A DNA stretch of 64,000 nucleotides from Brevibacterium daeguense (GTDB lineage Bacteria; Actinomycetota; Actinomycetes; Actinomycetales; Brevibacteriaceae): NCBI RefSeq assembly GCF_021729135.1, contig NZ_JAJTWW010000020.1, positions 1 through 64,000 on the forward strand, in the 5' to 3' direction. The notes under the pieces are model-generated. The model did not search any database, was not told the DNA's origin, and worked only from the letters and a program-made list of their open reading frames with translations. Below are positions 1,119 to 20,884 of the stretch, in pieces. Position 1 is the stretch's first letter. Every line of letters begins with the position of its first letter. Made by a program: the position numbers and the translations under genes.

Positions 1119-1811
1119 TCAGAACGTCAGCAGATCCTCTTCTTCGAGGTGCGTGATCTCGTTGCCGGTGAGCATGACAGCGCGGTCCTCGCCGAACCGC
1201 ACGCGGGTGATTCCCGCATGAGCCGGGCGGAAGAGGAAGTCGCGCTCCAGGCCGTACTCCTCAGCCAGAAACGCGTTGATCACGCCACCGTGGCAGGCAA
1301 TCGCCACCTTCTGACCGGAGTGCCGGCTGGAGATCTCCCAGATCGCACTGTGGACTCGCGTGCGGAACTCAGCCGAGCCCTCCCCCAGGGGGATGGAATC
1401 CCAGGTCAGCGTCTCGACCATCCGCCTGCTCGCCTCGAGGGCCCGCTCGGTGCCCACCGCCTGTTCGAAGCTCTGCTCGCCGGGGACATCGCGGAAGATC
1501 CCGACTTCCCGAATCCGAGCGTCCACGATCACCTCGTGGCCGTAGTGCGCCGCGATCGCCTTGCCGGTGTCGTTGGCGCGAGCCAGGTCCGAGGAGTAGA
1601 CCGCATCGATACCGACACCGGCCAGCGCCCGACTCACCGCCTCGGCCTGCTTCCAACCGATCTCCGACAGGTGGGCGTCGTAGGCCATCGACTCCGGGGA
1701 ATCCTGCCCGGCCCGCACCTGCTGGCCGTGCCGGACCAGATAGACCTCTGCACCATCAGTGGCACGCGTGAGCAGTGCCGCACCCAGAGCGCGCCCCAGG
1801 AAGTTGCTCAA
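1119..1811 (-). CDS. Histidine phosphatase family protein
   Basis: A 230-residue protein of the histidine phosphatase (phosphoglycerate mutase-like) superfamily. The catalytic RHG motif is at residues 27-29 (YLVRHGQQ), an acidic/basic core follows, and the second catalytic His lies in IACHGGVINAF. Members hydrolyse phosphomonoesters through a phosphohistidine. The TTG start overlaps the TGA of the upstream SDR gene (TTGA) and has GGGGGTG upstream, so it is the last gene of the minus-strand operon that starts at 5933. Its place beside two kinase-like genes suggests removal of phosphate from a pathway intermediate or cofactor, but the substrate is unknown. Confidence 0.85.
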   Translation of the reverse strand: MSNFLGRALGAALLTRATDGAEVYLVRHGQQVRAGQDSPESMAYDAHLSEIGWKQAEAVSRALAGVGIDAVYSSDLARANDTGKAIAAHYGHEVIVDARIREVGIFRDVPGEQSFEQAVGTERALEASRRMVETLTWDSIPLGEGSAEFRTRVHSAIWEISSRHSGQKVAIACHGGVINAFLAEEYGLERDFLFRPAHAGITRVRFGEDRAVMLTGNEITHLEEEDLLTF

Positions 1812-2566
1812 TTCGGCGCACCCCCGTCGACGGTGAGCATTGCACCAGTGGTGTAGGACGCCATTGACGAGGACAGGTAGAGCACCGCACCGACGATCTC
1901 CTCGGGCTGGCCGCCGCGCTTGGCGGCGAATTCCTGAGCCCGCTCCTGGAATGCCTCCTGGTCCCAGTGCTTGGACACGTCGGTGAGGAAGGTGCCGGGC
2001 ACCACCGTGTTGACGCGCACATCCGGACCGTAGGCGTGAGCGAGCGCCATCGTCGTGGCGTTCAGGCCGGCTTTGGCCGCCGCGTAGGGCACGACATTGG
2101 GCTTCGGATGCAGCGAGGCGATCGAGGAGATGTTGACGATCGCTCCCCCGCCGTTTCCGGTCATCTTCTCGCCCAGCAGCGCCGACAGCCGGAACGGGCC
2201 CTTGAGGTTGAGCCCGATCACCTTGTCGTAGAGCGCCTCGCTGATCCCGCTGATGGAGTCGTACAGCGGCGAGGAGCCGGCGTTGTTGACGAGCACGTCC
2301 ACGCCGCCCAGTTCCTCCCACACCGTCTCCGCGAACTCGGTGCACTGGTCCCAGTCCGCCACCTGCAGCGCGTACGGACTGACCTTTCCGCCGGTCTGCG
2401 CGGTAATCCTCTCAGCGGCGTCCTGGCAGGCCTCCAGCTTCCGCGAGGCGATCGCCACGTGAGCACCCAGCGTCGAGAAGGCACACGCCATCTCGAAGCC
2501 CAGCCCCCGCGAGCCGCCGGTGATGACGACCTTCCGGTCGGTGAAATCGAATGCCCAGTCGCTCAT
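1808..2566 (-). CDS. SDR family oxidoreductase
   Basis: A 252-residue classical short-chain dehydrogenase. The nucleotide-binding motif TGGSRGLG is at residues 16-23, NNAG at 94-97, and the catalytic Ser/Tyr/Lys group ends in YAAAK (Tyr161, Lys165). It ends with the common SDR tail TVDGGAPN. The ATG has AGGGG upstream. It lies 28 bp after the APH-type gene and overlaps the phosphatase by 4 nt, so it belongs to the operon. By context it probably oxidises or reduces a hydroxy- or keto-acyl-CoA; in the Pseudomonas Lva pathway an SDR (LvaD) reduces 4-ketovaleryl-CoA. Substrate assignment is inference. Confidence 0.88.
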   Translation of the reverse strand: MSDWAFDFTDRKVVITGGSRGLGFEMACAFSTLGAHVAIASRKLEACQDAAERITAQTGGKVSPYALQVADWDQCTEFAETVWEELGGVDVLVNNAGSSPLYDSISGISEALYDKVIGLNLKGPFRLSALLGEKMTGNGGGAIVNISSIASLHPKPNVVPYAAAKAGLNATTMALAHAYGPDVRVNTVVPGTFLTDVSKHWDQEAFQERAQEFAAKRGGQPEEIVGAVLYLSSSMASYTTGAMLTVDGGAPN

Positions 2567-2594
2567 GACTCTGCCCCTACCGTTGTCTCTGTCT

Positions 2595-3629
2595 TCATGA
2601 CTCGATGATCTCCATGGCCTGATCGAACAGGGACAGGGTCCGCTCGTGCAGACGCCTGCCCACGGACTCCGGGGCCAGCCCCGCCGAGGCGCGGGCGGTC
2701 GAGCCCTCCAGGATCGACCCGAACCGGAAGCAGGCCAGCACGTGGTAGAAGTCGACATCGTCGACGTCCCAGCGGCTGACCTCCCCGTAGGCGGCCACGA
2801 TCTCGGACTTGCCCGGCGCGCCGGGCGGCTGCAGACCGTGCGCCGACGCCAGCAGGTGGCCCAGGTCCAGCAGCGGATCGCCCAGCGTGCACAGCTCCCA
2901 GTCCACGATCGCCGCGACCTCCGGCGCCTCGTGCTTGAACATCACATTGCCGGCATGGCAGTCACCGTGGATGATCCCGGTGTTCTGCTCGGCCGGCGTC
3001 CACTCGTTCAGCCAGGCCGGGATCGCCTCGACCCCGGGATGGTCCAACCCTTCCCAGGTGTCGAACTCCCGGTAGCTCTCCAGCTGCCCGACCCAGCGGC
3101 CAGGCTGGCGAGCCAGCCAGCCGTCCGGCTTCCCGAACCCGGTCAGCCCGACCGCCGCGTAGTCGACATTGCCCAGTTCGGCGACGGCACGCGCATGGGA
3201 CAGGCCCATCGCGTGCTGCCAGTCGGTGTCGTTGCGGACATGCTCGGGCACCTCGGAGACGCCGTTGAACCCGTCGACGGCGCGCATGATGAAGAACGCG
3301 TTGCCCAGCACGTCCAGGTCCTCGCACACGGCGATGAACTCCGGGTGCGGCACCCGGCTGCCGGCCAGCGCCTCCAGGACGCGAGCCTCGCGCAGCATGA
3401 TCGTGTCAGAGTTCTTCCGCTTGTTCACCGGCGGACCGCGATAGATCAGCCGGTCATCGTTCCAGGTGAACCCCAGCAGCACATTCTGCGTGCCCCCGGT
3501 CAGGAAGTCCGGGTCCGCCAGCTGCCCCTCACCCAGCCGCTCCCGCAGCCACTCCTCCAGCCGCGCAAAGTCGATGCCGGCCTGCCGGGCATGCTCGGCC
3601 GCGACCGCCGCCTCGTTGGCCGCACTCAT
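2595..3629 (-). CDS. APH-type phosphotransferase family protein (LvaA/ACAD10-11 kinase-domain-like), copy 1
   Basis: A 344-residue kinase-fold protein of the aminoglycoside phosphotransferase/choline kinase group. The Brenner motif HGDCHAGN starts at His221 (catalytic Asp223, Asn228) and the metal-binding motif is IVDWELCTLGDPLLDL. Relatives encoded next to acyl-CoA dehydrogenases, or fused to them in ACAD10/11, phosphorylate 4-hydroxyacyl-CoA rather than antibiotics. The ATG overlaps the stop of the upstream ACAD gene (TGATG), which implies translational coupling. A second, divergent copy lies on the other side of the ACAD gene. A resistance role is unlikely given this context. Confidence 0.85.
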   Translation of the reverse strand: MSAANEAAVAAEHARQAGIDFARLEEWLRERLGEGQLADPDFLTGGTQNVLLGFTWNDDRLIYRGPPVNKRKNSDTIMLREARVLEALAGSRVPHPEFIAVCEDLDVLGNAFFIMRAVDGFNGVSEVPEHVRNDTDWQHAMGLSHARAVAELGNVDYAAVGLTGFGKPDGWLARQPGRWVGQLESYREFDTWEGLDHPGVEAIPAWLNEWTPAEQNTGIIHGDCHAGNVMFKHEAPEVAAIVDWELCTLGDPLLDLGHLLASAHGLQPPGAPGKSEIVAAYGEVSRWDVDDVDFYHVLACFRFGSILEGSTARASAGLAPESVGRRLHERTLSLFDQAMEIIES

Positions 3630-4900
3630 CAGGAGACCGCCTCGAGGTACTCGGCGAACTTCTTCTTCGCCTCCTCGGCGCGGGTCGGGATGTGCTCCGA
3701 GGGCACCTCGGTGGGCTCGTAATCCCGCAGCACCCGGCGGGACACGGTGACCTTGTGCACCTCGTCCGGGCCGTCGTAGATGCGGGCGGCACGGGCGTTG
3801 CGGTACATCTCCTCCAGCGGCAGATCCCCGGTGATGCCCAGCGAGCCGTGCACCTGGATCGCGCGGTCGATGACGTTGTAGAGCACCTGCGCGCCCCAGA
3901 ACTTGATGATCGCGATATCGGTCAGCGCAGCCTTGGTCCCGCCCTGATCCATCTTCCACGCCGCCTGCAGCGTCAGCAGCCGCGCCGCCTCCAGCTCCGC
4001 CTTCGAGGTGGCGACCATGTCCTGGATCATCTGCTTGTCCTTGAGCAGCCCGCCGGACACCTTCCGCGACACCACCCGTTCGCACATGATGTCGAAGGCC
4101 CGCTGCCCCTGCCCCAGCCAGCGCATCGCGTGGTGGATCCGGCCGGGCCCGAGGCGCTGCTGGGCCAGCATGAACCCGTCGCCCTCCTCGCCGACCAGGT
4201 GGGAGACCGGCACCCGGACGTCCTCGTACAGGATCTCCGCATGTCCCTTGTCACCGGCAGCCGCCGAATGACCCATCACCGGGATGTCACGCAGGATGTT
4301 CACGCCGGGGGTGTCGCGGTCGACCAGGATCATCGACGCCCGGCGGTGGGGCTCGGCGTCCGGGTCGGTGACGACCATGACGATGAAGAAGTCGGCATGC
4401 GAGCCGTTGGAGGAGAACCACTTGTGGCCGTTGATGACGTACTCATCACCCTCGCGCACCGCACGGGTGGACAGCTGCGTCGGATCCGCGCCGGCACCGG
4501 GCTCGGTCATCGAGAAGCACGACCGGATCTCCCCGTTCAGCAGCGGCTTCATCCACCGCTCCTTCTGCCACTCGTCGCCGCCGATCGCCAGCAGCTCCGC
4601 ATTGCCCGAGTCCGGGGCGTTGTTGCCGAAGATCGGGGGTGCGAACACCGACTGGCCGAGGATCTCGTGCATCAGCCCCAGCTTGAGCTGGCCGAACCCG
4701 CCGCCGCCCAGCTCCGGCTCCAGGTGCGCCGCCCACAGTCCCTGGTCCTTGACCTGCTGCTTGAGCTTGTCCGTGTGCTGCTTGAATGCCGCCTCCGGAA
4801 GGTCGGCGACCTCAAGTGGGATGATCTCCTCGCGGACGAACCTCCGCATCCACTCCAGCTTCTTCTCGAACTCCGGCTCAGTCGAAAAATTCCAGCTCAT
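3629..4900 (-). CDS. Acyl-CoA dehydrogenase family protein (ACAD10/11-like)
   Basis: A 423-residue FAD enzyme with the ACAD signature CFSMTEPGAGADPTQL and a C-terminal flavin region near RAIQVHGSLGITGDLPLEEM. At the usual catalytic-base loop it reads IYDGPDEVHK, with Asp where medium-chain enzymes have Glu; the DGPDEVH form is characteristic of the ACAD10/11-LvaC group. The ATG at 4900 follows AGGAGG. It lies between two APH-type kinase genes, separated by 1 bp on one side and overlapping on the other. In ACAD10/11 the kinase phosphorylates a 4-hydroxyacyl-CoA and the ACAD domain eliminates phosphate. The same chemistry is proposed here by analogy. Confidence 0.9.
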   Translation of the reverse strand: MSWNFSTEPEFEKKLEWMRRFVREEIIPLEVADLPEAAFKQHTDKLKQQVKDQGLWAAHLEPELGGGGFGQLKLGLMHEILGQSVFAPPIFGNNAPDSGNAELLAIGGDEWQKERWMKPLLNGEIRSCFSMTEPGAGADPTQLSTRAVREGDEYVINGHKWFSSNGSHADFFIVMVVTDPDAEPHRRASMILVDRDTPGVNILRDIPVMGHSAAAGDKGHAEILYEDVRVPVSHLVGEEGDGFMLAQQRLGPGRIHHAMRWLGQGQRAFDIMCERVVSRKVSGGLLKDKQMIQDMVATSKAELEAARLLTLQAAWKMDQGGTKAALTDIAIIKFWGAQVLYNVIDRAIQVHGSLGITGDLPLEEMYRNARAARIYDGPDEVHKVTVSRRVLRDYEPTEVPSEHIPTRAEEAKKKFAEYLEAVS

Positions 4901-4901
4901 A

Positions 4902-5933
4902 TCAGTTCTCCTCCTTGAGAATCGCAAGTGCCTGCCGCGCCAGGCTCTCCACGCCGGCGCCGGCGGTTTCGGGATCGAAATCCAGATCGCCCATCTGCCC
5001 GGTGATCAGGCGGGTGTACACGCCTTCGCGGATGCACGCGAGCTTCCACATCGCGAAGGCGGCGTAGTAGTCGACGTTCTCGGCCCGGATCCCGGACCGA
5101 TCCTCATAGCGGGCGATGAGCTCCTCGGTGGTCGGGAACCCATCGGCCGGCCTGGGCACCCAGATGCTCGTCAGCTCGTCCGGGGTGGTGAGCATCGCGA
5201 TGAAGTAACCCAGGTCGGTGAGCACCTCGCCGATCGCGGTGAGCTCCCAGTCGACCACCGCGTTGATCGTGCCGTCGGGGGCGAAGATCATGTTGTTCGG
5301 CTTGTAGTCGCCGTGCGCGATCCCGATCGCCGAATCGCTGAACTCCGGCATCTCCCGCTTGAGCACGTCGTGGACTTCCCGGATCTCGGGGATGTCCCGC
5401 TGGGTGATGTCCTCGAACTGGCCCAGCCAGCGCCGCAGCTGCCGCTCGATCAGACCGCCGGGCCGGCGCAGGTCACCCAGACCGACCGCCTCGACGTCCA
5501 CCCGGTGGATCGCGGCCAGCGTGTCGACCATCCCGAACGCGGTGCCACGCCGCCGGTCCTCCGGGATCCGCGCCCAGTCCTCAGGCGTATTGATCGGAAA
5601 TCCCGGGCAGTGCTCCATGAACACGAAGGGGACTTCCATCACCTCCGGATCATCGACGATCTCGAGCACGTTCGTCACCGGCACATCCGTCGGCCCCAGC
5701 GCCGCCATGATCCGACCCTCGCGCGCCACATTGTGCGCACTGCCGCCCTTGTGCCCCAGCGGCGGACGCCGCAGCACCCAGCGCTTCTGCCCGTCGACCT
5801 CGACGGTGAATGTCAGATTCGATCTGCCGATCGACAGCACCGAGTACGTCACCTCGGAGACTCCGAAGCGGTTCTCGATCCACCGGCCCACCTTCTGCGG
5901 GTCGATCCCGGCAGGTGCCAACACCTCGGTCAC
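4902..5933 (-). CDS. APH-type phosphotransferase family protein, copy 2
   Basis: A 343-residue protein of the same fold as the gene at 2595 but clearly diverged. An N-terminal lobe contains SNLTFTVEVDGQKRWVLRRPP. The catalytic motif HGDYKPNN starts at His207 (Asp209) and the metal motif is AVVDWELTAIGEVLTDLGYF. The GTG start has AGGAGGTCAAAG directly upstream. It is the first gene of the operon, whose promoter region contains an AAC-N4-GTT palindrome at 5951-5960, 18 bp upstream of the start. The open frame continues further upstream antisense to the CaiB gene, but the ribosome site supports the short form. The two kinases may form a heteromer or act on different substrates. Confidence 0.85.
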   Translation of the reverse strand: MTEVLAPAGIDPQKVGRWIENRFGVSEVTYSVLSIGRSNLTFTVEVDGQKRWVLRRPPLGHKGGSAHNVAREGRIMAALGPTDVPVTNVLEIVDDPEVMEVPFVFMEHCPGFPINTPEDWARIPEDRRRGTAFGMVDTLAAIHRVDVEAVGLGDLRRPGGLIERQLRRWLGQFEDITQRDIPEIREVHDVLKREMPEFSDSAIGIAHGDYKPNNMIFAPDGTINAVVDWELTAIGEVLTDLGYFIAMLTTPDELTSIWVPRPADGFPTTEELIARYEDRSGIRAENVDYYAAFAMWKLACIREGVYTRLITGQMGDLDFDPETAGAGVESLARQALAILKEEN

Positions 5934-5950
5934 CTTTGACCTCCTGATTG

Positions 5951-5960
5951 AACAATCGTT
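5951..5960. promoter_or_regulatory. Putative TetR operator AACAATCGTT (kinase/ACAD operon)
   Basis: An imperfect palindrome AAC-AATC-GTT with flanks TTG and CGATA. It lies 18 bp upstream of the GTG of the first kinase gene. Matching sites occur at 6061, 9923, 14698 and 20875, with a half-degenerate one at 13858. Confidence 0.65.
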
Positions 5961-6060
5961 CGATACCTTTGAACCGTAGGTAAACCGGGCGCGAGTGTCA
6001 AGCCCGCCGAGGCCCGGCAGGCTCTCGCCGGCCCGGCGGCCGCCTCGGGAACGGCTGTGG

Positions 6061-6070
6061 AACAATCGTT
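6061..6070. promoter_or_regulatory. Putative TetR operator AACAATCGTT (CaiB gene)
   Basis: The same ten bases as the site at 5951, 110 bp away, and 38 bp upstream of the GTG start of the CoA transferase. The two sites sit in the shared divergent promoter region, so one regulator could control both directions. Confidence 0.65.
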
Positions 6071-6107
6071 GAATGTCCTGACCGCGCTCGTTCAAGGAAG
6101 AATCTTC

Positions 6108-7289
6108 GTGACCCTCGATATCTCGACATCCACTCCCGGCCCGCTGTCCGGCGTCATCGTCGCCGACTTCTCGCGCGTGCTGGCCGGACCCTACTGCACG
6201 ATGATCCTCGCCGACCTCGGCGCGACGGTGATCAAGGTCGAGAGCCCCGGCGGCGACGACACCCGCGCCTGGAAGCCGCCGGCCTACCGCGGCGGCGCCT
6301 GCTACTACCAGGCGGTCAACCGCAACAAGCACTCGATCACCCTCGACTTCACCGACCAGGACGACCTCATGGTCGCCAAGGAGATCGCCGCCCGGGCCGA
6401 TGTCTTCGTCCACAACTTCAAGCCCGGCTCGATCGACAAGTTCGGGCTCGGCTACGAGGGCGTCAAGGAGCTCAACCCGGAGATCATCTACGCCCACATC
6501 AGCGGCTTCGGCACGACCGGCGCCGGCCGAGCACTGCCCGGCTATGACGTGCTGGTGCAGGGCATGGCAGGTCTGATGGACATGAATGGCGAACCCGACG
6601 GCGAGCCGGTCCGCTCCGGCGTCTCCATCTTCGACCTCACCACCGGGATGATGACCGCTGTCGGCATCGCCTCGGCGCTGCGTCACAAGGAGCGCACGGG
6701 TGAGGGGCAGCTCATCGAGAACAACCTCATGGCCAACGCGATCTTCACGATGGCCAACCAGTACCAGGTGGGTGCGACGACGGGGAAGGCGCCGCGGCGC
6801 AACGGCGCCGAGCATCCGACGATCTACCCCTACAACGCCTTCCCCACGGGAGACGGCGAGCTCATCGTGGTCGCCGGCAACAACGGGCAGTTCGCACGCC
6901 TCTGCCAGGTCCTCGGCACCTCCGAGCTCGCCGCCGACGAGCGCTTCGACGACCCCGAGAAGCGCAACGTCAACCGCGATGAGCTCCGCCCGCTGCTGGA
7001 GCAGGCGCTGTCGGCCAGGAGCAAGGACGAATGGTTCCAGCTGATGCGGGACGCGGGAATCCCGTGCTCGCCGGTGCAGAGCGTCGACGAAGGCCTCGTC
7101 TCCGCCCAGGAGCTCGGACTCGATCCGCTGTGGCACACCGAGGACCCGGAGTCGATGCCCACCGTCCGCAACTCGCTGAGCATGTCGGGCACGCCGGCGA
7201 CATACCGCAAGGAGCCGCCGGAGCTCGGCGAGGACTCCGAGGCGGTGCGCGCCTGGCTGGCGCAAGTTGCGACGGAGGCCAAGCGCTAG
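6108..7289 (+). CDS. CaiB/BaiF (family III) CoA transferase
   Basis: A 393-residue type III CoA transferase. The N-terminal Rossmann-like core contains VLAGPYCTMILADLGATVIKVE, and the catalytic Asp is probably Asp176 in GVSIFDLTTG. The family moves CoA between carboxylates, so it would activate an imported acid with CoA from another thioester. The GTG at 6108 follows AAGGAAG; an ATG at 6057 overlaps the operator and lacks a ribosome site. It is transcribed alone, divergently from the kinase/ACAD operon, and ends at a strong hairpin. The acceptor acid is unknown. Confidence 0.92.
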   Translation: MTLDISTSTPGPLSGVIVADFSRVLAGPYCTMILADLGATVIKVESPGGDDTRAWKPPAYRGGACYYQAVNRNKHSITLDFTDQDDLMVAKEIAARADVFVHNFKPGSIDKFGLGYEGVKELNPEIIYAHISGFGTTGAGRALPGYDVLVQGMAGLMDMNGEPDGEPVRSGVSIFDLTTGMMTAVGIASALRHKERTGEGQLIENNLMANAIFTMANQYQVGATTGKAPRRNGAEHPTIYPYNAFPTGDGELIVVAGNNGQFARLCQVLGTSELAADERFDDPEKRNVNRDELRPLLEQALSARSKDEWFQLMRDAGIPCSPVQSVDEGLVSAQELGLDPLWHTEDPESMPTVRNSLSMSGTPATYRKEPPELGEDSEAVRAWLAQVATEAKR

Positions 7290-7312
7290 CGCCCCGAGCA
7301 CGGCACGCATGC

Positions 7313-7347
7313 ATCAGCCGGCTGACCGTTGCGGTCAGCCGGCTGAT
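7313..7347. terminator. Bidirectional terminator between the CaiB and TAXI genes
   Basis: A perfect 15-bp inverted repeat (arm ATCAGCCGGCTGACC, 7313-7327 and 7333-7347) with a 5-nt loop, located between two convergent genes. An outer CCCGAG/CTCGGG pairing may extend it. Confidence 0.8.
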
Positions 7348-7401: not shown

Positions 7402-8577
7402 TCACCGCTGAAGCGGAATATGCGGGGCGTTGTCGTCCTTCCACTGCTCCCAGGTCTCGGCGAGCTCGTCGGAGGGAGTGTTCGCCAGCACCTCGGGCCA
7501 GCCCGCGCGCAGCTTCTCACCGCGCTCGATGAGCAGCTGATTGCGCTCCTCCATCTCCGGCGTCCACAGCCCCTGCTCCTCGAGGTAGCGGACCACGCCG
7601 TCATGGTGAGGCAGCACCATCGGCATCCATTCGATCTCCTCGAACTCCCAGTCCTTGGTGGTCGCCGTGGCGTCCCGGTAGCTCGGGAAGGACTCGTGGA
7701 AGGCCTTGGCCATCGCGTAGACCTCGTCAGCGCTGAAATCGGCGTACGTCGTCATCTGGATCGCGTAGGTCGGTCCGCGCTTGGCCTTCCCCTCCATGCC
7801 GATCGAGGATTCGAACTCCTCGATGACCACCGAGGGCGCGTACTCCTGGAGCCGCTTCTCCGCCTCCTCGTCACCGTCGAAGTCGATCCACCTGAAGTCC
7901 ATCTGGGTGGCGACCTCGATGATCGCCGACGACTGCGCTCCGAAGTAGACCATGTCGAGCCCGCCGTTGGCGAACATGTCCGGCTGCGCGCCGTACTCCA
8001 CCGGCACTTTCACGACGTCCTCCGGGGTCAGGCCGGCGTATGCGAGAATGCCCATGATCTTCTCCTGCGAGGACGGGTTCGCGGCCATCCACGGCACCCG
8101 CTTGCCCTTGAGATCCTGCAGCGTCTCGATCCCGGAGTTCGCCGCCACGCCGACCGCAACCGTCGTCGGCGGGGTCCAGAACGTCCGCAGGTCCTGCGGA
8201 CCCCAGTCCGCCGACACGAACTCGTGCTTGCCCTCGAACGCGTAGAACGCCTCATCGGACAGCCGCGCGGTCTGCGCCTGACCGGTGCGCAGCGGGGTCA
8301 GTCGACCGATGCCGGTGTCCGAACCGAGGATCCGGACCTGCGTGTCGTATTCGGAGATCAGCGCCTCGGCGACGGCAGCCTGCTCGGAGTAGTTGGAGGT
8401 GCCGACGCCGTACCCGGTCCACACGGTCGTCTTCGGCAGACCGCTGGCGTGGTGCCCGGCGGGGCTCTCCGTGACCGGTTCGCCGGTGTCGGTGATCTCA
8501 CCGCACCCGGAAAGCGTGAGCACGCCCGCCGTCAGTCCGGCGACGATCACGCTTGCGCGGCGTCGGATCGGCTTCAT
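7402..8577 (-). CDS. TAXI family TRAP transporter solute-binding lipoprotein, copy 1
   Basis: A 391-residue lipoprotein. The signal peptide has an RRR start, a hydrophobic core and the lipobox LSGC. The mature part has the TAXI-type pattern, with a TGYGVGTSNY segment, QVRILGSDTGIGRLTPLR, and a DLKGKRVPWM hinge-region segment. It would capture an organic acid outside the membrane and deliver it to a TRAP permease. It is transcribed away from the only permease gene (11522) and is a paralogue of the second TAXI gene at 10321, with many identical blocks. The ATG is preceded by GAGGAG. It probably shares the permease or binds a related substrate. Confidence 0.9.
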   Translation of the reverse strand: MKPIRRRASVIVAGLTAGVLTLSGCGEITDTGEPVTESPAGHHASGLPKTTVWTGYGVGTSNYSEQAAVAEALISEYDTQVRILGSDTGIGRLTPLRTGQAQTARLSDEAFYAFEGKHEFVSADWGPQDLRTFWTPPTTVAVGVAANSGIETLQDLKGKRVPWMAANPSSQEKIMGILAYAGLTPEDVVKVPVEYGAQPDMFANGGLDMVYFGAQSSAIIEVATQMDFRWIDFDGDEEAEKRLQEYAPSVVIEEFESSIGMEGKAKRGPTYAIQMTTYADFSADEVYAMAKAFHESFPSYRDATATTKDWEFEEIEWMPMVLPHHDGVVRYLEEQGLWTPEMEERNQLLIERGEKLRAGWPEVLANTPSDELAETWEQWKDDNAPHIPLQR

Positions 8578-8665: not shown

Positions 8666-9832
8666 TCAGTCGACGAGCTCGAGGATCGTCGCGTTGGCCT
8701 GGCCACCGGCCTCGCACATGGTCTGCAGCCCGTACCGGGTTCCGGTGCGGCGCATGTGGTGGATGAGATCGGTCATGATCCGCGCTCCCGAGGCGCCCAG
8801 CGGGTGACCGAGCGCGATCGCGCCGCCGTTGGGGTTGACCTTGTCCCAGTCGACGCCGATCTCCTTCATCCACGCCGCCGGCACCGAGGCGAAGGCCTCG
8901 TTGACCTCGAACACGCCGATGTCGGAGGCGCTCAGCCCCGACTTCTTCAGCGCCTTCTGGGTGGCCGGGATCGGAGCGGTGAGCATGATGATCGGGTTCG
9001 CTCCGGCGAGGGCTGCCGTGTGGACCTTGGCAATCGGCTTGAGCCCGAGCTCGCGGGCCTTCACATCCGTCATCACGAGCAGCGCGGCCGCGCCGTCGGA
9101 GATCTGCGACGAGTTGCCGGCGGTGATCACGCCGTCATCCTTGAAGACGGTCTTGAGTCCGCCCAGGGTCTCCAGAGTGCCGCCGGGGCGGATGCCCTGG
9201 TCCTGCTTGAACTCGAACTCCTCGCCCTCCTTCGTCAGTCCGGTGATCGGGAGGATCTGGTCGGCGAAGTCGCCGCGCTCGGTGGCGGCCTGCGCCCGGG
9301 CGTGGGAATCCAGCGCCAGCTGGTCCATCTGCGTGCGGTCGAAGCCCCACTGCTCGGCGACCATCTCCGCGCCCACGCCCTGGCTGAACTCCTCCTGGCC
9401 GTAGCGCTCGAAGATCGACGGGCCGAAGGGCTTGCCGGGGCCGTTGGTGCGGTTGGAGCCCATCGGCACGCGGGTCATGGTCTCGACTCCGCCGGCGACG
9501 GCGACGTCGTAGTGACCGGCCATCACCGAGGCGATCGCGAAGGTCAGCGCCTGCTGCGAGGATCCGCAGGCCCGGTCGACCGTGGTGCCCGGGGTGGTCT
9601 CGGGCCAGCCGGCGGCCAGCGCCGACCAGCGGGCGACATTGGAGGCCTGCTCGCCGGCCTGCACGACGCAGCCGAAGATCACGTCGTCGACGATCTGGGG
9701 ATCGAGCGAGTTCCGCTCCGCCAATCCCTTGAGAACGTGGCCCCCCAGGGTCACCGGATGGATGTCCCTCAGCGCTCCGTTGCGCTTTCCTGTCGCAGTG
9801 CGGGCTGCGTCGACAATGACTGCTTCCGGCAT
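8666..9832 (-). CDS. Acetyl-CoA C-acyltransferase (thiolase)
   Basis: A 388-residue thiolase of the degradative type. The nucleophile Cys89 is in VDRACGSSQQA, His343 in ALGHPLGASGAR, and the second catalytic Cys373 in TMCEAGGQANA. The last motif departs from the usual CIGGGMG but keeps the Cys. It would cleave a 3-ketoacyl-CoA to acetyl- or propionyl-CoA and a shortened acyl-CoA, the last step of beta-oxidation. The start follows AAGGGAAG. An AACGATCGTT palindrome lies 91 bp upstream. The gene is monocistronic, closed by the hairpin at 8625. Confidence 0.93.
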   Translation of the reverse strand: MPEAVIVDAARTATGKRNGALRDIHPVTLGGHVLKGLAERNSLDPQIVDDVIFGCVVQAGEQASNVARWSALAAGWPETTPGTTVDRACGSSQQALTFAIASVMAGHYDVAVAGGVETMTRVPMGSNRTNGPGKPFGPSIFERYGQEEFSQGVGAEMVAEQWGFDRTQMDQLALDSHARAQAATERGDFADQILPITGLTKEGEEFEFKQDQGIRPGGTLETLGGLKTVFKDDGVITAGNSSQISDGAAALLVMTDVKARELGLKPIAKVHTAALAGANPIIMLTAPIPATQKALKKSGLSASDIGVFEVNEAFASVPAAWMKEIGVDWDKVNPNGGAIALGHPLGASGARIMTDLIHHMRRTGTRYGLQTMCEAGGQANATILELVD

Positions 9833-10320
9833 CGGTCTTCCCTTTCGAACGGCGGTGTTCGGGGCCGCGCGATGAGCAGCATGCGCTGTTCCTCCAGGCG
9901 GTCCCTGCGATCGCCCGGCCCGAACGATCGTTAAGTGACTGCCATTCACAGTAGCAAGAGGCGTCACCCTCGTCACACTCCGACCCCTCCCCAAGGGCGA
10001 GGAGCAGTGAGCCCCTGGCACGCTGACCAGCGCTTTCGTTCCGCCTCCGGCGGACGGTCGTAACCAAGATCACGATTGATGCCGAATCCTCAAAGGATTT
10101 TTGGATTTTGATGTCCTCTGTGCAAGAATTCTCAGGCAATGCCATCAGGAGTGGCTTCTGTCACGGCACGGCCGGTGCTGCTGACCAGGATTTCGAAGGC
10201 GAACGTCCGTAGGCGACCTCGCTGGAGGCCTGCCGACTCTGATCTGGCCAAACCGTTCCCGCCACCGGCACCAGCCGGACGGGATCCCCCGACCACAGAC
10301 GACAGAAGGAATCAGCGCCG
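9833..10320. other. Divergent intergenic region between thiolase and second TAXI gene
   Basis: The 488 bp hold no credible gene. They contain the perfect operator palindrome at 9923-9932 near the thiolase end and, at 10071-10080, a weaker relative (CACGATTGAT). An A/T-richer stretch at 10065-10140 could hold the promoter for the TAXI/permease operon. The translation start at 10321 has AGAAGGA upstream. Confidence 0.55.
9923..9932. promoter_or_regulatory. Putative TetR operator AACGATCGTT (thiolase gene)
   Basis: The only perfectly symmetric member of the set, flanked by CG and AAGTG. It lies 91 bp upstream of the thiolase start. Confidence 0.65.
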
Positions 10321-11454
10321 ATGACCAAGCTCACCAGATTGCTTGCCTCACTCTCTGCCGGCGTGATGCTGCTTTCAGGCTGCGCCACCCTGGAGCTCAA
10401 CGAGGAGGTCTCCGCCTTCCCCGAGTTCAATGCGTGGACCACCTATGGCACCGGCACGGCGACATATGCAGACCTCGCCGCGGCGTCGAACACGATCTCG
10501 AATGCGACCGACTCGCAAGTCCGGATCCTCACCTCGGACACAGCGGTGGGCCGCCTGAGTCCCCTGCGCAACAAGCAGGCGACGATGGCGCGCACGGGCG
10601 ACGAGTACATGTTCGCGTTCAACGGCGAGCATGACTTCGCCCATCCCGACTGGGGTCCGCAGAACGTGCGCGTGGTGTGGGCCCCGCCGGCCCCTCACTC
10701 GCTCATGACCCGGACCAACACGGGTATCGAGACCCCGATGGACCTCAAGGGCAAGAAGGTCCCCGTGATCACCGCCAATCCATCGGTGCAGAACAAGTTC
10801 GACGCCGTCCTCGCCTACGCGGGGCTGACCTGGGATGACGTCATCCCGGTCAACGTCGCGTACAGCGAGCAGCCGGGCGCGCTGCAGGCCGGGCAGATCG
10901 ATGTCCTGTTCCAGCAGGTCTACGGCTCCTCCCTGTTCGAGCTCGAGAGCGCGGTCGACACCCAGTGGCTCGAGCTCGACCCCGAGGACACCGAACGCGT
11001 GGCGGCGCTGCAGGAGGTCGCCCCGGCCGTCGAGATCGGCTCCTTCACCGGAGCCGCCGGACAGGAGGAGGGCGAGGAGGCCAACGGCTACATCTACGCG
11101 ATTCCCCTGATGTCCTACGATTCCGTGGCCGACTCGCAGGTCTACCACACGGCCAAGGCGCTGCAGGAGCACTACCCCCAGTACAAGGACGCCACCGCGA
11201 CCACCGAGGACTGGGACATCGAGCACATCGTCAAGATGCCGGTGGAGGTGCCGTTCCACGACGGCACTGTCCAGTACCTCGAAGAGATGGGCGCTTGGAC
11301 CGACGAGGCCGAAGAGCGCAATCAGGCCCTGATCGCCTACGGGGAGCGGATGCGCGAGGAATGGCCGAAGTTCTATGAGCAGGCCGATCTCGACGGGGAC
11401 ATCCACGAGCAGTGGATCGCGTGGAAGGACCAGCACATCGAGCCGGTCGACTGA
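10321..11454 (+). CDS. TAXI family TRAP transporter solute-binding lipoprotein, copy 2
   Basis: A 377-residue lipoprotein with a short signal peptide and lipobox LLSGC. The mature protein has the TAXI layout, with TTYGTGTATYADLAAA near the N terminus, QVRILTSDTAVGRLSPLR, and MDLKGKKVPVITANPSVQNKF. It is 67 bp upstream of the fused permease gene and clearly its cognate binding subunit. It is a paralogue of the protein at 7402. The ligand is probably a carboxylate whose CoA ester feeds the surrounding beta-oxidation genes. The pocket cannot be read from sequence. Confidence 0.92.
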   Translation: MTKLTRLLASLSAGVMLLSGCATLELNEEVSAFPEFNAWTTYGTGTATYADLAAASNTISNATDSQVRILTSDTAVGRLSPLRNKQATMARTGDEYMFAFNGEHDFAHPDWGPQNVRVVWAPPAPHSLMTRTNTGIETPMDLKGKKVPVITANPSVQNKFDAVLAYAGLTWDDVIPVNVAYSEQPGALQAGQIDVLFQQVYGSSLFELESAVDTQWLELDPEDTERVAALQEVAPAVEIGSFTGAAGQEEGEEANGYIYAIPLMSYDSVADSQVYHTAKALQEHYPQYKDATATTEDWDIEHIVKMPVEVPFHDGTVQYLEEMGAWTDEAEERNQALIAYGERMREEWPKFYEQADLDGDIHEQWIAWKDQHIEPVD

Positions 11455-11521
11455 CCGGACCGCAACTCGAACGACTGACGTTCCGGACCGTGCACCGTCC
11501 GGCTGATTGACAGGAACAGAT

Positions 11522-13693
11522 ATGAATTCTCGAATCACCCCACTGTGGAAGGGGGTCATCGTCGTGCTCACCGTGCTCGGTGTGCTGCTGGCGATGAACC
11601 AGGCCTTCTTCTGGAACCTCGGCGGGATCGTCCTGCTGACCAACTCCTATCTCTACCTCACGTTGGCATGCTTCCTGCCGATCGTGTTCCTCGTATTCCC
11701 CATCGTGAAGTCGCAGAAGGGCAAGCCCATGCCCTTCTACGACGTCATCCTGGCGGCACTGACCTTCGTGGTCTGCCTGTACTTCGGCGTCAACGGCGAG
11801 AACATCGTCAATTTCGGCTGGGACAAGTCCCTGACCTACCCCACGATCACCCTGATCTTCTCGTTCGTCCTGTGGGCGCTCGTCCTCGAGGCGCTGCGCC
11901 GTTCCGCCGGCCTCGTGGTGACGGGGATCGCGCTCGCGTTCTCGATCTACCCGATGTTCGCGCTCGGTGTCCCGGTGCCGTTCCTGCAGGGAATCCCCTA
12001 CGAGCTCGACGACACCGCCCGTATTCACGCGATGGGCGTCGACTCGATCCTCGGGCTGCCGCTGCAGACCGCCGCCTCCATCCTCATCGGCTTCCTGATG
12101 TTCGGTGTAGCGCTCCAGCACACCGGGGGCGCGACCTTCTTCTACGACCTCGCACAGTCGCTGTTCGGCCGCTTCCGCGGCGGCTCGGCGAAGGTCTCGG
12201 TCATCTCCTCCGGATTCATGGGCATGATGTCGGGTTCGGCCGTGTCGAACGTGCTCACCACCGGCCCGATGACGATCCCCGCGATGAAGAAGTCCGGATT
12301 CCCCGGCCGCTACGCAGCCGGTGTCGAGGCGACCGCCTCGACCGGCGGCACCATCACCCCGCCCATCATGGGCGCGGCCGCCTTCCTCATGGTCTCCTTC
12401 GTGGGCGTCCCCTATGGTGAGATCGCGCTCGCGGCCGCCATTCCGGCCCTGCTGTACTACCTCGGCATCTACGTGCAGATCGATGCCTACTCGGCGAAGA
12501 CCGGACTCAAGGGCATCTCCAAGGACCTGCTCCCCAAGGCCGGCCAGACCGCACTCAAGGGCTGGCCGTACATCGTGGCCCTCGTCGGGCTCGTCCTGCT
12601 GCTGGTCGTCCAGCGGAACGAGGAGCAGGCACCCTACTGGGTGATCGGATTCCTGCTCGTCGTCGCCCTGTTCTCCAAGGAGCACCGTCTGACCCCGAAG
12701 TCCTTCATCGACTTCCTGTTCGCCTCGGGCAAGACGATCGCTGAGATCATCGGCATCATCGCCGGCGTCGGCCTGATCGTCGGCGGCCTGTCGATGACCG
12801 GCGTGTCGCTGTCGCTGGCGCGCGAGCTCATCAACCTCGTGGGCGACAACCTGTTCCTCATCCTCATCGCCGGCGCCGTGACCTCGTTCGTGCTGGGCAT
12901 GGGCATGACCGTCTCCGCCGTCTACGTGTTCCTGGCTGTCGTGCTCGCTCCGGCGCTGACCGCGATGGGCATCAACCCGATCGCCGCCCATCTGTTCGTG
13001 ATCTACTGGGCGACCGTCTCCTACATCACCCCGCCGGTGGCGCTGGCCTCGTTCGCCGCGGCCAATATCGCGGGCACACCGGCGATGTCGACGTCGCTGA
13101 CAGCCATGCGCCTGGGATCGGTGAAGTACATCATCCCGTTCGCGTTCGTCCTCAACCCGGCACTGGTGGCCCAGGACTCGGGCATCGTCGAGATCGCCTA
13201 CACCGCGGTGTTCGCCATCATCGGCGTGTTCTTCCTCGGATGCGCGTTCGAGGGCTGGATGATCGGCACGAACCGGAAGCTCAACTGGCCGATGCGCATC
13301 GTGCTGATCGCCGCAGGCCTGGCGACCCTGGCACCGGAGCTCACCTCCAGCATCATCGGTCTGGCCGTGGGAATCGCCGTCATGGTCATCACCCGATTCT
13401 GGAACGCGGGCGGGCCCGAAGAGGCTGCAGCGATCGAGCGGGAGCGGATCCGCAAGCTCGAGGCCGAGGATGCCGCCGCTGTGGCAGCCGCCGAGGCCGA
13501 GCACGGCAAGCGCGAGCCGGCCATGGTGGGTGCCGCGCCCGAGGCGTCCGACGGTGTCATGGGCCCGACCGCCACCCGGGGGCTGGCCGTCGATCTCGAC
13601 GCGAACGACGCGACCGTGCTTTCGGACGACGACCGGGCCGACGTCCACCCGGGAGCGTCGGACCGCCAGGGTCACCGGCACGACGACGTCTGA
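11522..13693 (+). CDS. TRAP transporter fused permease (DctQ-DctM type, TAXI system)
   Basis: A 723-residue polytopic membrane protein. An N-terminal group of helices corresponds to the small DctQ-like subunit and a long C-terminal part to the DctM transport subunit, with many hydrophobic segments and conserved glycine-rich blocks such as MGMMSGSAVSNVLTTGPMTIP and STGGTITPPIMGAAAFLM. The C-terminal ~80 residues are a charged, Ala/Glu-rich cytoplasmic tail with no obvious domain. The pair works as an ion-coupled importer with the lipoprotein encoded just upstream. The ATG at 11522 has AGGA before it. Transcription ends at the hairpin 13753-13805. Confidence 0.93.
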   Translation: MNSRITPLWKGVIVVLTVLGVLLAMNQAFFWNLGGIVLLTNSYLYLTLACFLPIVFLVFPIVKSQKGKPMPFYDVILAALTFVVCLYFGVNGENIVNFGWDKSLTYPTITLIFSFVLWALVLEALRRSAGLVVTGIALAFSIYPMFALGVPVPFLQGIPYELDDTARIHAMGVDSILGLPLQTAASILIGFLMFGVALQHTGGATFFYDLAQSLFGRFRGGSAKVSVISSGFMGMMSGSAVSNVLTTGPMTIPAMKKSGFPGRYAAGVEATASTGGTITPPIMGAAAFLMVSFVGVPYGEIALAAAIPALLYYLGIYVQIDAYSAKTGLKGISKDLLPKAGQTALKGWPYIVALVGLVLLLVVQRNEEQAPYWVIGFLLVVALFSKEHRLTPKSFIDFLFASGKTIAEIIGIIAGVGLIVGGLSMTGVSLSLARELINLVGDNLFLILIAGAVTSFVLGMGMTVSAVYVFLAVVLAPALTAMGINPIAAHLFVIYWATVSYITPPVALASFAAANIAGTPAMSTSLTAMRLGSVKYIIPFAFVLNPALVAQDSGIVEIAYTAVFAIIGVFFLGCAFEGWMIGTNRKLNWPMRIVLIAAGLATLAPELTSSIIGLAVGIAVMVITRFWNAGGPEEAAAIERERIRKLEAEDAAAVAAAEAEHGKREPAMVGAAPEASDGVMGPTATRGLAVDLDANDATVLSDDDRADVHPGASDRQGHRHDDV

Positions 13694-13946: not shown

Positions 13947-14621
13947 ATGCGAGCCACCAACGGGCGGGCAGATATCCTGCGCGCCGCCCGCAACACCTTC
14001 GCCCGCAAAGGGTATGACGGCGCCTCGATCCGCGACATCGCGCAGGAGGCCGGACTGAGCCTTTCCGCTCTCTACTACTACTTCCCGTCCAAGCAGGACG
14101 CGCTCTACGAGCTGATCACCAAGGCCTTCGAGTGGTACATCGAGCACGCCAACGGAGTGATCGAGGACGCCGGCGACAGCGAAGTCGACAGAGTCGCGAG
14201 CCTGATCCGCTTCGTCGTGCGCTACCGGGCGCAGAACGGTCTGATCAGTCGCGTGACGCTGCGCGACACCGAACGCCTGGACCCGGAGAAGTACGAGAAG
14301 ATCCGAGAGCTCCAGCGCGTCTCGCGGGCGATCCTCACCGATGTCCTGGCCAAGGGCATGGAGACCGGAGTATTCCGGATCGAGAACCCGGATCTCGCAG
14401 GACGTGCGATCCTGTCGATCCTGAACTCGATTCCCCTGTGGTATCGGGAGGGCGGGCCGCTCGACATCCCTGCGCTTGAGCGCTCCTACACCGCCTACTG
14501 CCTGCGCCTGCTGGGCTACCAGGAGCTCGCCGGGGAGTTCGACCGGCTGCTGAACCTGCCCCTCAACGAGGACGGCACGGCGACATTCATCGAGAGCGAG
14601 ACGGCCGCCGTGAACGGTTGA
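13947..14621 (+). CDS. TetR/AcrR family transcriptional regulator
   Basis: A 224-residue regulator. The N-terminal helix-turn-helix spans about residues 8-52 (AARNTFARKGYDGASIRDIAQEAGLSLSALYYYFPSK), followed by a helical ligand domain. The long C-terminal part resembles the TetR group that senses acyl-CoA or fatty-acid catabolites. GGAGAG precedes the ATG. It lies centrally in the catabolic island, between the transporter operon and the second ACAD gene. It is the best candidate to bind the AAC-N4-GTT palindromes and release them when an acyl-CoA accumulates. This link is inferred from position and motif spread. Confidence 0.92.
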   Translation: MRATNGRADILRAARNTFARKGYDGASIRDIAQEAGLSLSALYYYFPSKQDALYELITKAFEWYIEHANGVIEDAGDSEVDRVASLIRFVVRYRAQNGLISRVTLRDTERLDPEKYEKIRELQRVSRAILTDVLAKGMETGVFRIENPDLAGRAILSILNSIPLWYREGGPLDIPALERSYTAYCLRLLGYQELAGEFDRLLNLPLNEDGTATFIESETAAVNG

Positions 14622-14697: not shown

Positions 14698-14707
14698 AAC
14701 GATTGTT
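14698..14707. promoter_or_regulatory. Putative TetR operator AACGATTGTT (LCAD-type ACAD operon)
   Basis: Read on the minus strand, the site and its flank are GAACAATCGTTAAGTTAGG, identical over 19 bases to 20874-20892 upstream of the acyl-CoA ligase gene. It lies 49 bp upstream of the ACAD start. Confidence 0.7.
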
Positions 14708-14756
14708 CGATCGCGCTCTTTGCGTGGTCGAACCCCTCCGGACCGGAAGAGGACTC

Positions 14757-15926
14757 ATGCGCAGAGCAATTTTCACCGAGGAGCACGACGCCTTCCGGGC
14801 GATGTGCCGCGACTTCGTCACCAAGGAGCTCGTCCCGGCCTACGACCAGTTCGAGAAGGACGGCAAGGTCGCCAAGGAGTTCTTCGCCAAGATGGGCGAG
14901 CTGGGCCTGACCGGTCTGCAGGTGCCGGAGGAGTACGGCGGCGGCGGGCAGACCCACACCTTCAAGTTCAACACCATCCTCAACGAGGAGACCGCCTACG
15001 CGGCAACCACCCTCGGCACTCTGCGAGTGCACCAGGATCTGGTGATCCCCTACATCCTCGAGTACGCGAACGAGGAGCAGAAGCAGCGCTGGCTGCCCGG
15101 GATGGCCGCCGGCACCACGATGACGGCGATCGCCATGACCGAACCGGGCACCGGCTCGGACCTCACCGGCATCCGCACCAAGGCGGAGAAGAAGGACGGC
15201 TACTACCTGCTCAACGGGGCCAAAACCTTCATCTCCGGAGGAATCAATGCCGACCGGGTGCTCGTCGTCGCCCGCACCTCCCCCTACGACGAGAACAACC
15301 GCCGAGGCGGCCTGTCGATCCTCGTCGTCGATGCCCATGCCGAGGGCTTCGAGAAGGGCCGCAACCTCGACAAGATCGGCATCAAGACGCAGGACACCGC
15401 CGAACTGGCGTTCAACAGCGTCAAGGTGCCCTTTGAGGACCTGCTGGGCGAAGAGGGCAAGGCCTTCGAGTACCTCTCCCACAACCTCGCCCAGGAGCGG
15501 ATGACGATCGCCGTCAACGCGGTGGCCAGCTCCCAGGCCGCGATCAACTTCGCCACCCAGTACGCGCACGAGCGCAAGGTCTTCGGCAACCCGCTCAAGA
15601 GCTTCCAGAACACCAAGTTCGTGCTCGCCGAGTGCTCGACCGAGGTCGAGGCGGCTCAGGTCATGCTCGACCGCGCCATCGAGGCCCTCGACGCGAACGA
15701 GCTCACCCCGGCCGACGCGGCCCGGGTCAAGCTGTTCACCACCGAGGTGCAGGCGCGCGTGGTCGACAAGTGCCTGCAGATCCACGGCGGCTACGGCTAC
15801 ATCCTCGAATACCCGATCGCCCGTCTCTACGCCGACGCCCGTGTCACCCGCATCTACGGCGGCACATCCGAGGTGATGAAGACCATCATCGCCAAGGACA
15901 TGGGCCTGTCCGAGCGGCGCGGCTGA
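14757..15926 (+). CDS. Acyl-CoA dehydrogenase, LCAD/IVD-type active site
   Basis: A 389-residue acyl-CoA dehydrogenase with both family signatures ([16 protein letters not shown] and a C-terminal [20 protein letters not shown] block). At the usual catalytic loop it has IYGGTSEV, so Glu is missing there. A Glu is instead present in the helix [11 protein letters not shown] (Glu247), as in long-chain and isovaleryl-CoA dehydrogenases, which suggests longer or branched substrates. The ATG at 14757 follows GGAAGAGG. It is the first gene of a run with an SDR and an enoyl-CoA hydratase, giving three consecutive beta-oxidation activities. Confidence 0.93.
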
Positions 15927-16016: not shown

Positions 16017-16778
16017 ATGCAGATTTCCGGACACGCAGCACTCGTCACCGGTGGCGCCTCGGGCCTGGGCCTGGCCACGGTGCAGCGGCTGGTGGGCGAG
16101 GGAGCCAAGGTCGTCATCGCCGACGTCAACCCGCCGGCCGACGACGTCGCAGCCGAGCTCGGCGACAACGTCCGCTTCGTCACAACCGACGTCACCGATG
16201 AGGATCAGGTCTCGGCGGCGATGGACGCCGCCACCGAGCTCGGCGACCTGCGCGCCGTCGTCCACTGCGCCGGCATCGGCGGTCCGATGCGCCTGGTCCA
16301 GAAGGACGGCACGGCCGGGGACCTCAACCACTTCAAGAAGATCATCAACGTCAACCTCATCGGCACGATGATCGTGGCCAGCCAGGCCGGCGTGCGGATG
16401 GCCAAGAACGAGGAGATCGACGGGGAGCGCGGCGTCGTCATCTTCACCGCCTCGGCCGCGGCCTTCGAGGGCCAGATCGGTCAGGCCGCCTACTCGGCGT
16501 CCAAGGGCGGAGTCGTCGGCCTCACCCTCTGCGCAGCACGCGACTACGCCTCCAAGAAGATCCGCGTCGTCACCATCGCGCCGGGCACGGTGGACACCCC
16601 GCTGCTGGCCAAGGCGTCGCAGGAGGTCCGCGACTCGCTGGCCGCGATGGTGCCGCACCCCTCGCGCCTGGCCCGCCCCGACGAGTACGCCCACCTGGCG
16701 CTGTCGATCATCGAGAATGCGATGATCAACGGTGAGACCATCCGGATGGACGGCGCAATCCGGATGGCTCCGCGCTGA
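16017..16778 (+). CDS. SDR family 3-hydroxyacyl-CoA dehydrogenase (HSD17B10-like)
   Basis: A 253-residue short-chain dehydrogenase. The cofactor motif TGGASGLG is at residues 11-18, and Tyr159/Lys163 lie in [10 protein letters not shown] long insert ([18 protein letters not shown]) before the helix carrying IINVNLIGT is typical of the type-10 17beta-HSD group, which oxidises short, often branched (2-methyl-3-hydroxy) acyl-CoAs. GAAGGAGA precedes the ATG. It lies between an ACAD and an enoyl-CoA hydratase gene, so the third beta-oxidation step is the likely role. Confidence 0.92.
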
Positions 16779-20843: not shown

Positions 20844-20874
20844 GTACCCGTCAACCGCACCCGAGCCGGTCCTG

Positions 20875-20884
20875 AACAATCGTT
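20875..20884. promoter_or_regulatory. Putative TetR operator AACAATCGTT (acyl-CoA ligase gene)
   Basis: Together with its flanks (GAACAATCGTTAAGTTAGG) it matches the inverted site before the ACAD gene at 14757 over 19 bases. It lies 50 bp upstream of the proposed TTG start. Confidence 0.7.

Follow-up and report, generated by a model that had tools for sequence, protein, structure and literature searches.

Two APH-fold kinases and one predicted 4-phosphoacyl-CoA lyase in an operon of Brevibacterium daeguense

We analysed 64,000 nucleotides of Brevibacterium daeguense (the window: contig NZ_JAJTWW010000020.1, positions 1 to 64,000), in which five genes lie on the minus strand from 5933 to 1119 in the order kin2 - ACADp - kin1 - SDR1 - HisPhos. 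These encode an acyl-CoA (CoA, coenzyme A) dehydrogenase (ACAD) placed between two kinases, then a short-chain dehydrogenase (SDR) and a histidine phosphatase (Table 1). We propose, with moderate confidence, that they constitute a 4-hydroxyacyl-CoA catabolic operon in a TetR-type regulon, in which two kinases coming from separate kinase-ACAD partnerships feed one lyase. The operon very likely removes the hydroxyl from short fatty acids for use as fuel, through the phosphorylation route known from Pseudomonas and from mammalian ACAD10/ACAD11, and thus represents a variant, open to testing, of an established pathway and not a new pathway; the chemistry and single-kinase operons are already known and are common in the collections searched. 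Gene content, residues, partnerships, motif and conservation are read directly from the sequence, and from them we infer what the enzymes do and on which substrate, how the kinases share the work, that TetR binds the motif and what the phosphatase is for.

When ACADp was compared with solved structures, the best matches were 4hr3 (288.1 bits) and ACAD11 (272-274 bits), against 191 bits for the best conventional ACAD (1ukw). The lyase step of ACAD11 on 4-phosphoacyl-CoA needs R626, H634 and R637 in addition to the catalytic D753, and substitutions of the first three disrupt the reaction (PMC12440821). We observed that R249, H257, R260 and D376 of ACADp align with these four residues, the ACAD11 numbering being matched by hand count on the alignment, and that all four are invariant across 10 aligned proteins. 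D376, the catalytic aspartate replacing the usual glutamate, is located in IYDGPDEVH, and the three others are carried by the phosphate-binding region QRLGPGRIHHAMR. ACADp and its three aligned close orthologues have an alanine where ACAD11 has the cysteine of 'HCMR'. ACADp is a predicted 4-phosphoacyl-CoA lyase; an ordinary ACAD was ruled out by the active-site signature and the structure-match scores. The original prediction, made from the sequence alone, had taken this protein for an ACAD of the ACAD10/11/LvaC type, and the scores and the conserved residues bear it out. A second signature-bearing ACAD, 47% identical to ACADp, is encoded in the same genome (G000, contig C1, 629662-630768; L271). 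It carries RLGPGRIHHCMR and DGPDEVH, with SDR-, thiolase- and ligase-like genes nearby, and no match to kin1 or kin2 was detected in the 18-kb stretch read around it.

The five-gene content and order proposed earlier (HGDYKPNN kinase, IYDGPDEVHK ACAD, HGDCHAGN kinase, SDR and phosphatase at 1119-5933) agree with the Pfam matches. Contacts of 1-4 nt had also been described; these are present at three of the four junctions, namely +1 nt for kin2/ACADp, -1 nt for ACADp/kin1 and -4 nt for SDR1/HisPhos (presuming the TTG start at 1811), and kin1 and SDR1 are separated by 28 nt. The identical order was found in two other genomes of the genus, G003 and G430, with 80-90% protein identity. The ratio of non-synonymous to synonymous substitution rates (dN/dS) is 0.10-0.23 across the five genes, which, with the conserved order, indicates a gene set beyond chance.

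Both kinases were then compared with solved structures. For kin2, the matches were 9o56 (160.4 bits), 3dxp (135), the ACAD11 kinase domain (115.6) and 9fsg (51.5), and for kin1 they were 3dxp (116.8 bits), 9o56 (94.3), ACAD11 (56.7) and 9fsg (32.9). In the three species having the merged operon, kin1 and kin2 keep HGDxxxxN, DWE, the helix C Arg-Glu and the equivalent of ACAD11 R176, located by counting from D220. The best fold match of the AlphaFold model of kin1 (mean predicted local distance difference test score, pLDDT, 89.6) is 3dxp (Z 30.8, 308 residues, 2.3 A), followed by the 25-hydroxy steroid kinase 9fsg (Z 26.0) and Rv3168 (Z 25.4). Antibiotic, homoserine, hexosamine and choline kinases trail 3dxp and 9fsg with Z <=24, and matches at this level are expected since all share one fold. 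ACAD11 is not among the fold matches listed, an absence that carries no weight. In a tree of 101 kinases (quick method, midpoint root; kin1 of the window is row L005), kin1 falls in an 18-row clade with a Shimodaira-Hasegawa-like approximate likelihood ratio (SH-aLRT) support of 98, and kin2 in a separate 21-row clade (SH-aLRT 97) with kinases from Nocardia and Gordonia ACAD loci. ACAD11 belongs to a third clade, of 12 rows (SH-aLRT 99), with proteobacterial kinases, 9o56 stands among Bacillaceae kinases from ACAD loci, and LvaA is outside the tree. The assignment of the two kinases to the ACAD10/11 type, as first proposed, is backed by the ACAD11 kinase-domain match and by the antibiotic-kinase models, which gave at most 29.7 bits with either kinase; the tree, built without antibiotic or choline kinases, leaves that part of the claim where it was. 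An antibiotic kinase was ruled out on these model scores (29.7 bits for cut-offs of at least 205).

The likeness of kin1 to the 25-hydroxy steroid kinase (25-HSK), second-best fold match of its model, suggests another possibility, which we regard as unlikely: an ATP-dependent dehydration in which the substrate is not 4-hydroxyacyl-CoA but some other hydroxylated compound (tertiary alcohol, terpenoid or steroid side chain). A phosphate lyase was proposed to work together with the steroid kinase (PMC8449060). However, by sequence kin1 and kin2 match 3dxp and ACAD11 better than 9fsg, the cluster around them is a CoA and beta-oxidation set and, according to the same article, no candidate lyase gene is found near the 25-HSK gene. 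We give even less weight to a non-catalytic or allosteric role for one kinase in support of its neighbour, in the way that the small LvaB partners LvaA. In P. putida, LvaB is a binding partner of LvaA and growth on levulinate depends on it (as reported in PMC6692424), the ACAD11 kinase domains dimerise (PMC12440821), and the operon, whose largest internal gap is 28 nt, has no LvaB-sized gene and no gap that could hold one. However, the catalytic set is kept in both kinases of the three merged species, and in other genomes each is encoded away from its counterpart.

We examined the genes accompanying each kinase. Orthologues of kin2 (61-100% identity) are present in 48 of 57 genomes of the same genus; beside 36 of these 48 copies, an ACADp match of at least 300 bits lies within 3 kb on the same strand. 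The adjoining ACAD, 0.86-1.06 kb away, is other than ACADp for 33 of the 48, and in the four of these 33 whose signature was read (G427, G013, G005 and G454) it carries RLGPGRIHHCMR and DGPDEVH. ACADp (>=85% identity) was found in eight of the 57 genomes. Three of them (the window, G003, G430) have it behind kin2, and five (G015, G016, G017, G443 and G445) have it with kin1 but no adjoining kin2. SDR1 is next to ACADp-kin1 in four of these five loci and was not found in G443; kin2 is on a contig apart from ACADp-kin1 in G015, G016, G443 and G445, and no kin2 orthologue was found in G017, an incomplete genome. Two PARTNERSHIPS are merged in the operon, kin1 and kin2 each having its own history beside ACADp-like enzymes. 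Since ACADp-kin1 occurs without an adjoining kin2 in five of eight genomes and kin2 is usually beside other ACADs, kin1 looks like the older partner of ACADp and kin2 like a newcomer with its own promoter.

At the level of the class, looser kin2 homologues (E <= 1e-40) were detected in 252 of 394 genomes and kin1-type kinases (E <= 1e-60) in 56 of 394, own genome included; an ACAD with the R..H.MR motif is present in 14 of 29 short kin1-type loci. In the ACAD tree, ACADp belongs to a 16-row clade (SH-aLRT 99) whose kinase neighbours are kin1-type (L276, L153, L154), kin2-type (L162) or unclassed (L277, L050), with no listed kinase within 3 kb for the remaining rows; these labels come from a de-duplicated list, in which L207 is given as 'none' yet has a kin1-type kinase and the window is labelled k2 only.

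In the main rival to the 4-hydroxyacyl-CoA pathway with two kinases on one lyase, the partner of kin2 is a different lyase of the same cell. The kinase would act in trans with another phosphoacyl lyase, for example the ACAD on contig C1, the operon would only co-regulate parallel routes and kin1 alone would feed ACADp. We consider this reading doubtful, albeit the most serious of the alternatives: across the genus, kin2 mostly neighbours an ACAD other than ACADp, the signature-bearing ACAD on C1 has no kinase match in its 18 kb, and the two kinases reside on different contigs in the four genomes mentioned above. However, the tight kin2/ACADp junction, with its 1-nt gap in the window, recurs in three species, the match coordinates lying 5 apart each time, which suggests a coupled production.

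Several further points weigh against our proposal. The ACAD on C1 might be a target of kin2. ACADp was assigned to its type with ACAD11 as the reference, the LvaA and LvaC sequences lying outside the comparison, and 9o56, the best solved match of kin2, was deposited as 'aminoglycoside phosphotransferase'. Twelve of the 48 kin2 copies have no ACADp match of at least 300 bits within 3 kb. In the genome-contig collection, 45 of the 80 best related ACAD loci among the matches listed have one kinase within 4 kb and 35 have none, so the pairing of kinase and ACAD in an operon is not obligatory. Seven of the eight loci nearest to ACADp (61-72% identity, outside the genus; L050-L056 and L066) are without profile kinase, and the kinase of these loci may be elsewhere or of another type; the eighth, L050, has a weak kinase match only. 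Finally, the ACAD10 kinase also acts on the S isomer (PMC11342911), so that a second kinase is not strictly needed.

The original prediction had proposed the chemistry of the ACAD10/11 and Lva systems, and the ACADp residues and the kinase matches speak for such a pathway. In this route, the TRAP genes would import a hydroxy- or oxo-acid, CoA would be loaded by the AMP ligase or by the CaiB-type transferase, and SDR1, in a role like that of LvaD, would interconvert 4-oxo- and 4-hydroxyacyl-CoA. Then kin1 or kin2 would phosphorylate the 4-hydroxyl and ACADp would expel the phosphate, giving a 2-enoyl-CoA that the hydratase, SDR2 and thiolase of the cluster would degrade. kin1 would be ACADp's own partner; kin2, owner of an operator-like site, usually stands beside another ACADp-like enzyme. 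The most likely difference between the two kinases is the enantiomer or chain length that each prefers, which would allow one lyase to serve a wider substrate set; we favour this reason for the doubling because the ACAD10 kinase favours the R isomer, with about fourfold more product from R than from S (PMC11342911).

HisPhos contains the RHG motif and the second histidine (VRHGQ and ACHGG in the translation), and all 11 NCBIfam models listed for it were below cut-off. An orthologue (E <= 1e-25) was found in six of the 57 genus genomes, each time near kin2. Three of the six copies are in the merged operons (window, G003, G430); the others (G018, G429 and G442; L202, L269 and L270) are 11-13 bases (between matches) downstream of kin2, with no ACADp match in the 16-18 kb read. 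HisPhos was not found in the four kin2-ACAD operons read. Around the best 80 related ACAD loci, we counted eight phosphatase matches within 5 kb (708,203 bases) versus one further out (589,915 bases), the RHG motif being required, which left out two partial matches (L058 and L064). Histidine phosphatases are enriched near related ACADs in other phyla, yet at about one locus in ten. A phosphatase had been thought undescribed for such systems, which has to be corrected: in the lva cluster of P. citronellolis LA18T, where lvaB is missing, a histidine phosphatase gene stands beside that of the LvaA homologue, and its authors suggested that the enzyme may remove phosphate from 4-phosphovaleryl-CoA (PMC6692424). 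In addition, 25-HSK, of the same fold as the kinases, also phosphorylates 26-hydroxy steroids, giving products that are no pathway intermediates (PMC8449060). Because a phosphatase alone cannot make enoyl-CoA, the most likely role of HisPhos is to dephosphorylate stalled or wrong phospho-intermediates, in repair or limitation. A more specific scheme, in which two 4-hydroxyacyl-CoA kinases, independent in ancestry and complementary in enantiomer or chain-length specificity, serve one ACAD, HisPhos proofreads and recycles dead-end 4-phospho intermediates and the kinase-phosphatase pairing recurs in operons for 4-hydroxy acids in several phyla, is put forward tentatively.

The sequence GAACRATCGTT occurs at eight exact sites in the 3.56-Mb genome, five of which lie in a 15-kb part of the window (5950-20884), and the reversed pattern used as control has no site in this genome. 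The three other sites are C6:13728 (DctP-like genes), C34:101456 (SDR-like) and C56:188067 (acyl-CoA synthetase-like and DctP-like). With at most one mismatch, the motif is present within 150 bp upstream of kin2 at 35 of 39 genus loci (28 exact), and the reversed control at 0 of 39; these are 41 loci minus two without kin2, and are close relatives, not independent. No exact copy occurs in the ACADp-kin1 stretches of G016, G445 and G443; those of G015 and G017 are too short upstream to tell. A related TetR is encoded near kin2 in G018, G429 and G014. The eight sites, near CoA-catabolic and TRAP solute-binding genes, likely mark a TetR regulon, and the TetR at 13947-14621 is the candidate for binding them. 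Tandem pairs of DctP-like genes were also seen near motif sites (L033 10916-13570 and L038 9730-12634), besides the copy of the window at 19410-20699; DctP-like TRAP solute-binding proteins are an expanded uptake family.

The five genes belong to a larger cluster of 17 (1.1-22.6 kb) for CoA activation, TRAP transport and beta-oxidation, with the TetR gene. Neither this cluster with its shared motif nor the separate ACAD partnerships of the two kinases figured in the original prediction. In G003 all 17 genes are collinear, with 72-91% identity, and in G430 the order is kept for 16 of 17, the first TAXI gene not being found and the ligase being in two pieces. That the neighbourhood is a chance assembly without common pathway is extremely improbable: the merged operon is in only three of 57 same-genus genomes, but the collinearity, the shared motif and the purifying selection contradict it. 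Chance neighbours were ruled out by the motif counts, the collinearity, the dN/dS values and the motif upstream of kin2.

To see how common the two-kinase arrangement is, we surveyed loci of ACADs having the R..H.MR motif. Two kinases within 4 kb were found at 0 of the best 80 genome-contig loci among the matches listed, at 0 of 29 and 0 of 28 short and 0 of 11 longer loci of the class sets, at 0 of 5 plasmid loci, and at 3 of 16 loci of the genus set, namely the window, G003 and G430; many of these loci are short or ended by a contig edge, no R..H.MR ACAD is in the stretch in 15 of 29, 8 of 28, 3 of 11 and 1 of 16, and the kinase profile was built from the same sequences. A widespread two-kinase operon was not found in this survey, the arrangement being confined to three species of the genus among the loci examined. 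No near-identical operon was present in the plasmid collection, where the best ACAD has 61.6% identity and no annotated kinase in the stretch shown. A two-kinase operon is not named in the literature searched, mostly titles and abstract beginnings, which is no proof of absence.

The 4-hydroxy acid route was reportedly assigned to genes only recently, with the P. putida lva operon in 2017 and ACAD10/11 in 2024-2025. Like the lva operon of Pseudomonas, the cluster has separate genes for a kinase, an ACAD10/11-type ACAD, an SDR (1808-2566) and a CoA ligase (20934-22625), with a predicted phosphorylation followed by phosphate elimination; for the ligase and the SDR, the correspondence to LvaE and LvaD is drawn at the family level. 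Unlike lva, it has two kinases of different ancestry, a histidine phosphatase, TRAP transport and its own beta-oxidation genes, and a TetR gene in place of the regulator LvaR; no LvaR-type regulator is among the 17 Pfam-scanned cluster genes (only TetR), the rest of the genome not having been searched for one. The closest described gene content that we found is the lva cluster of P. citronellolis LA18T, with an LvaA-like kinase, a histidine phosphatase, LvaC- and LvaD-like genes and no lvaB, but with one kinase, an LvaR homologue and other transport genes (PMC6692424). The mammalian ACAD10 and ACAD11 comprise homologues of the kinase and of the ACAD, and ACADp keeps the Asp and the R/H/R of their phosphoacyl pocket, but they are fused polypeptides with one kinase; the HAD domain of ACAD10 has negligible phosphatase activity (PMC11342911). 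On a Massilia putida plasmid (L277), phosphotransferase, ACAD (51% identical) and SDR genes are in a row, but with one kinase and no phosphatase annotated in the stretch shown. The 25-hydroxy steroid kinase of Sterolibacterium denitrificans (9fsg, 9ft5; PMC8449060) has the APH fold and uses ATP to activate a hydroxyl as a leaving group, but its substrate is a non-CoA steroid, its sequence match to kin1 and kin2 is weaker and no lyase gene is assigned to it. A natural operon that joins a single lyase to two kinases and a phosphatase makes two questions directly testable: does the kinase determine which stereoisomers and chain lengths the pathway handles, and by what means do cells avoid a build-up of phospho-acyl-CoA? 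It could also supply parts for the upgrading of levulinate and gamma-lactones.

Table 1. Genes of the cluster and operator-like sites in the window.
Feature	Coordinates	Strand	Description and evidence
HisPhos	1119..1811	-	Histidine phosphatase branch 1; TTG start; Pfam His_Phos_1 116.7 bits
SDR1	1808..2566	-	Short-chain dehydrogenase; Pfam adh_short_C2 170.4 bits
kin1	2595..3629	-	APH-fold kinase; HGDCHAGN, IVDWE; Pfam APH 100.9 bits
ACADp	3629..4900	-	ACAD10/11/LvaC-type ACAD, predicted 4-phosphoacyl-CoA lyase; Acyl-CoA_dh_1 132 bits
kin2	4902..5933	-	APH-fold kinase; GTG start, AGGAGG upstream; HGDYKPNN, VVDWE; Pfam APH 125.7 bits
Operator-like GAACAATCGTTC	5950..5961	+	Between kin2 and divergent CaiB gene
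Operator-like GAACAATCGTT	6060..6070	+	Upstream of CaiB
CaiB/BaiF CoA-transferase	6108..7289	+	Pfam CoA_transf_3 401.7 bits (scanned from 6057); GTG start chosen
TAXI TRAP solute-binding protein 1	7402..8577	-	TIGR02122 over cut-off
Thiolase	8666..9835	-	TIGR01930 over cut-off
Operator-like GAACGATCGTT	9922..9932	+	Upstream of thiolase
TAXI TRAP solute-binding protein 2	10321..11454	+	TIGR02122 over cut-off
TRAP fused permease	11507..13693	+	TIGR02123 over cut-off
TetR regulator	13947..14621	+	TetR_N, TetR_C_24; candidate GAACRATCGTT binder
Operator-like GAACAATCGTT	14698..14708	-	Upstream of ACAD2
ACAD2	14757..15926	+	ACAD without phosphoacyl signature; Pfam, scanned from 14703
SDR2	16017..16778	+	Candidate 3-hydroxyacyl-CoA dehydrogenase
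Enoyl-CoA hydratase family protein	16827..17618	+	NF006100 (PRK08252) over cut-off
Succinyl-CoA:acetate CoA-transferase	17784..19289	+	NF053853 over cut-off
DctP-type TRAP solute-binding protein	19410..20699	-	PF03480 61.6 bits
Operator-like GAACAATCGTT	20874..20884	+	Upstream of acyl-CoA synthetase
AMP-dependent acyl-CoA synthetase	20934..22625	+	PF00501 241.3 bits (scanned from 20913); TTG start chosen

The sequence of ACAD2, the other ACAD of the cluster, has neither R..H.MR nor DGPDEVH. Elsewhere in the window, the minus strand carries a 216-codon open frame without Pfam match at 1-648, where the contig begins, and the genes at 35645-39392 encode iron-sulfur and molybdopterin subunits of a dehydrogenase of the xanthine/aldehyde-oxidase type.

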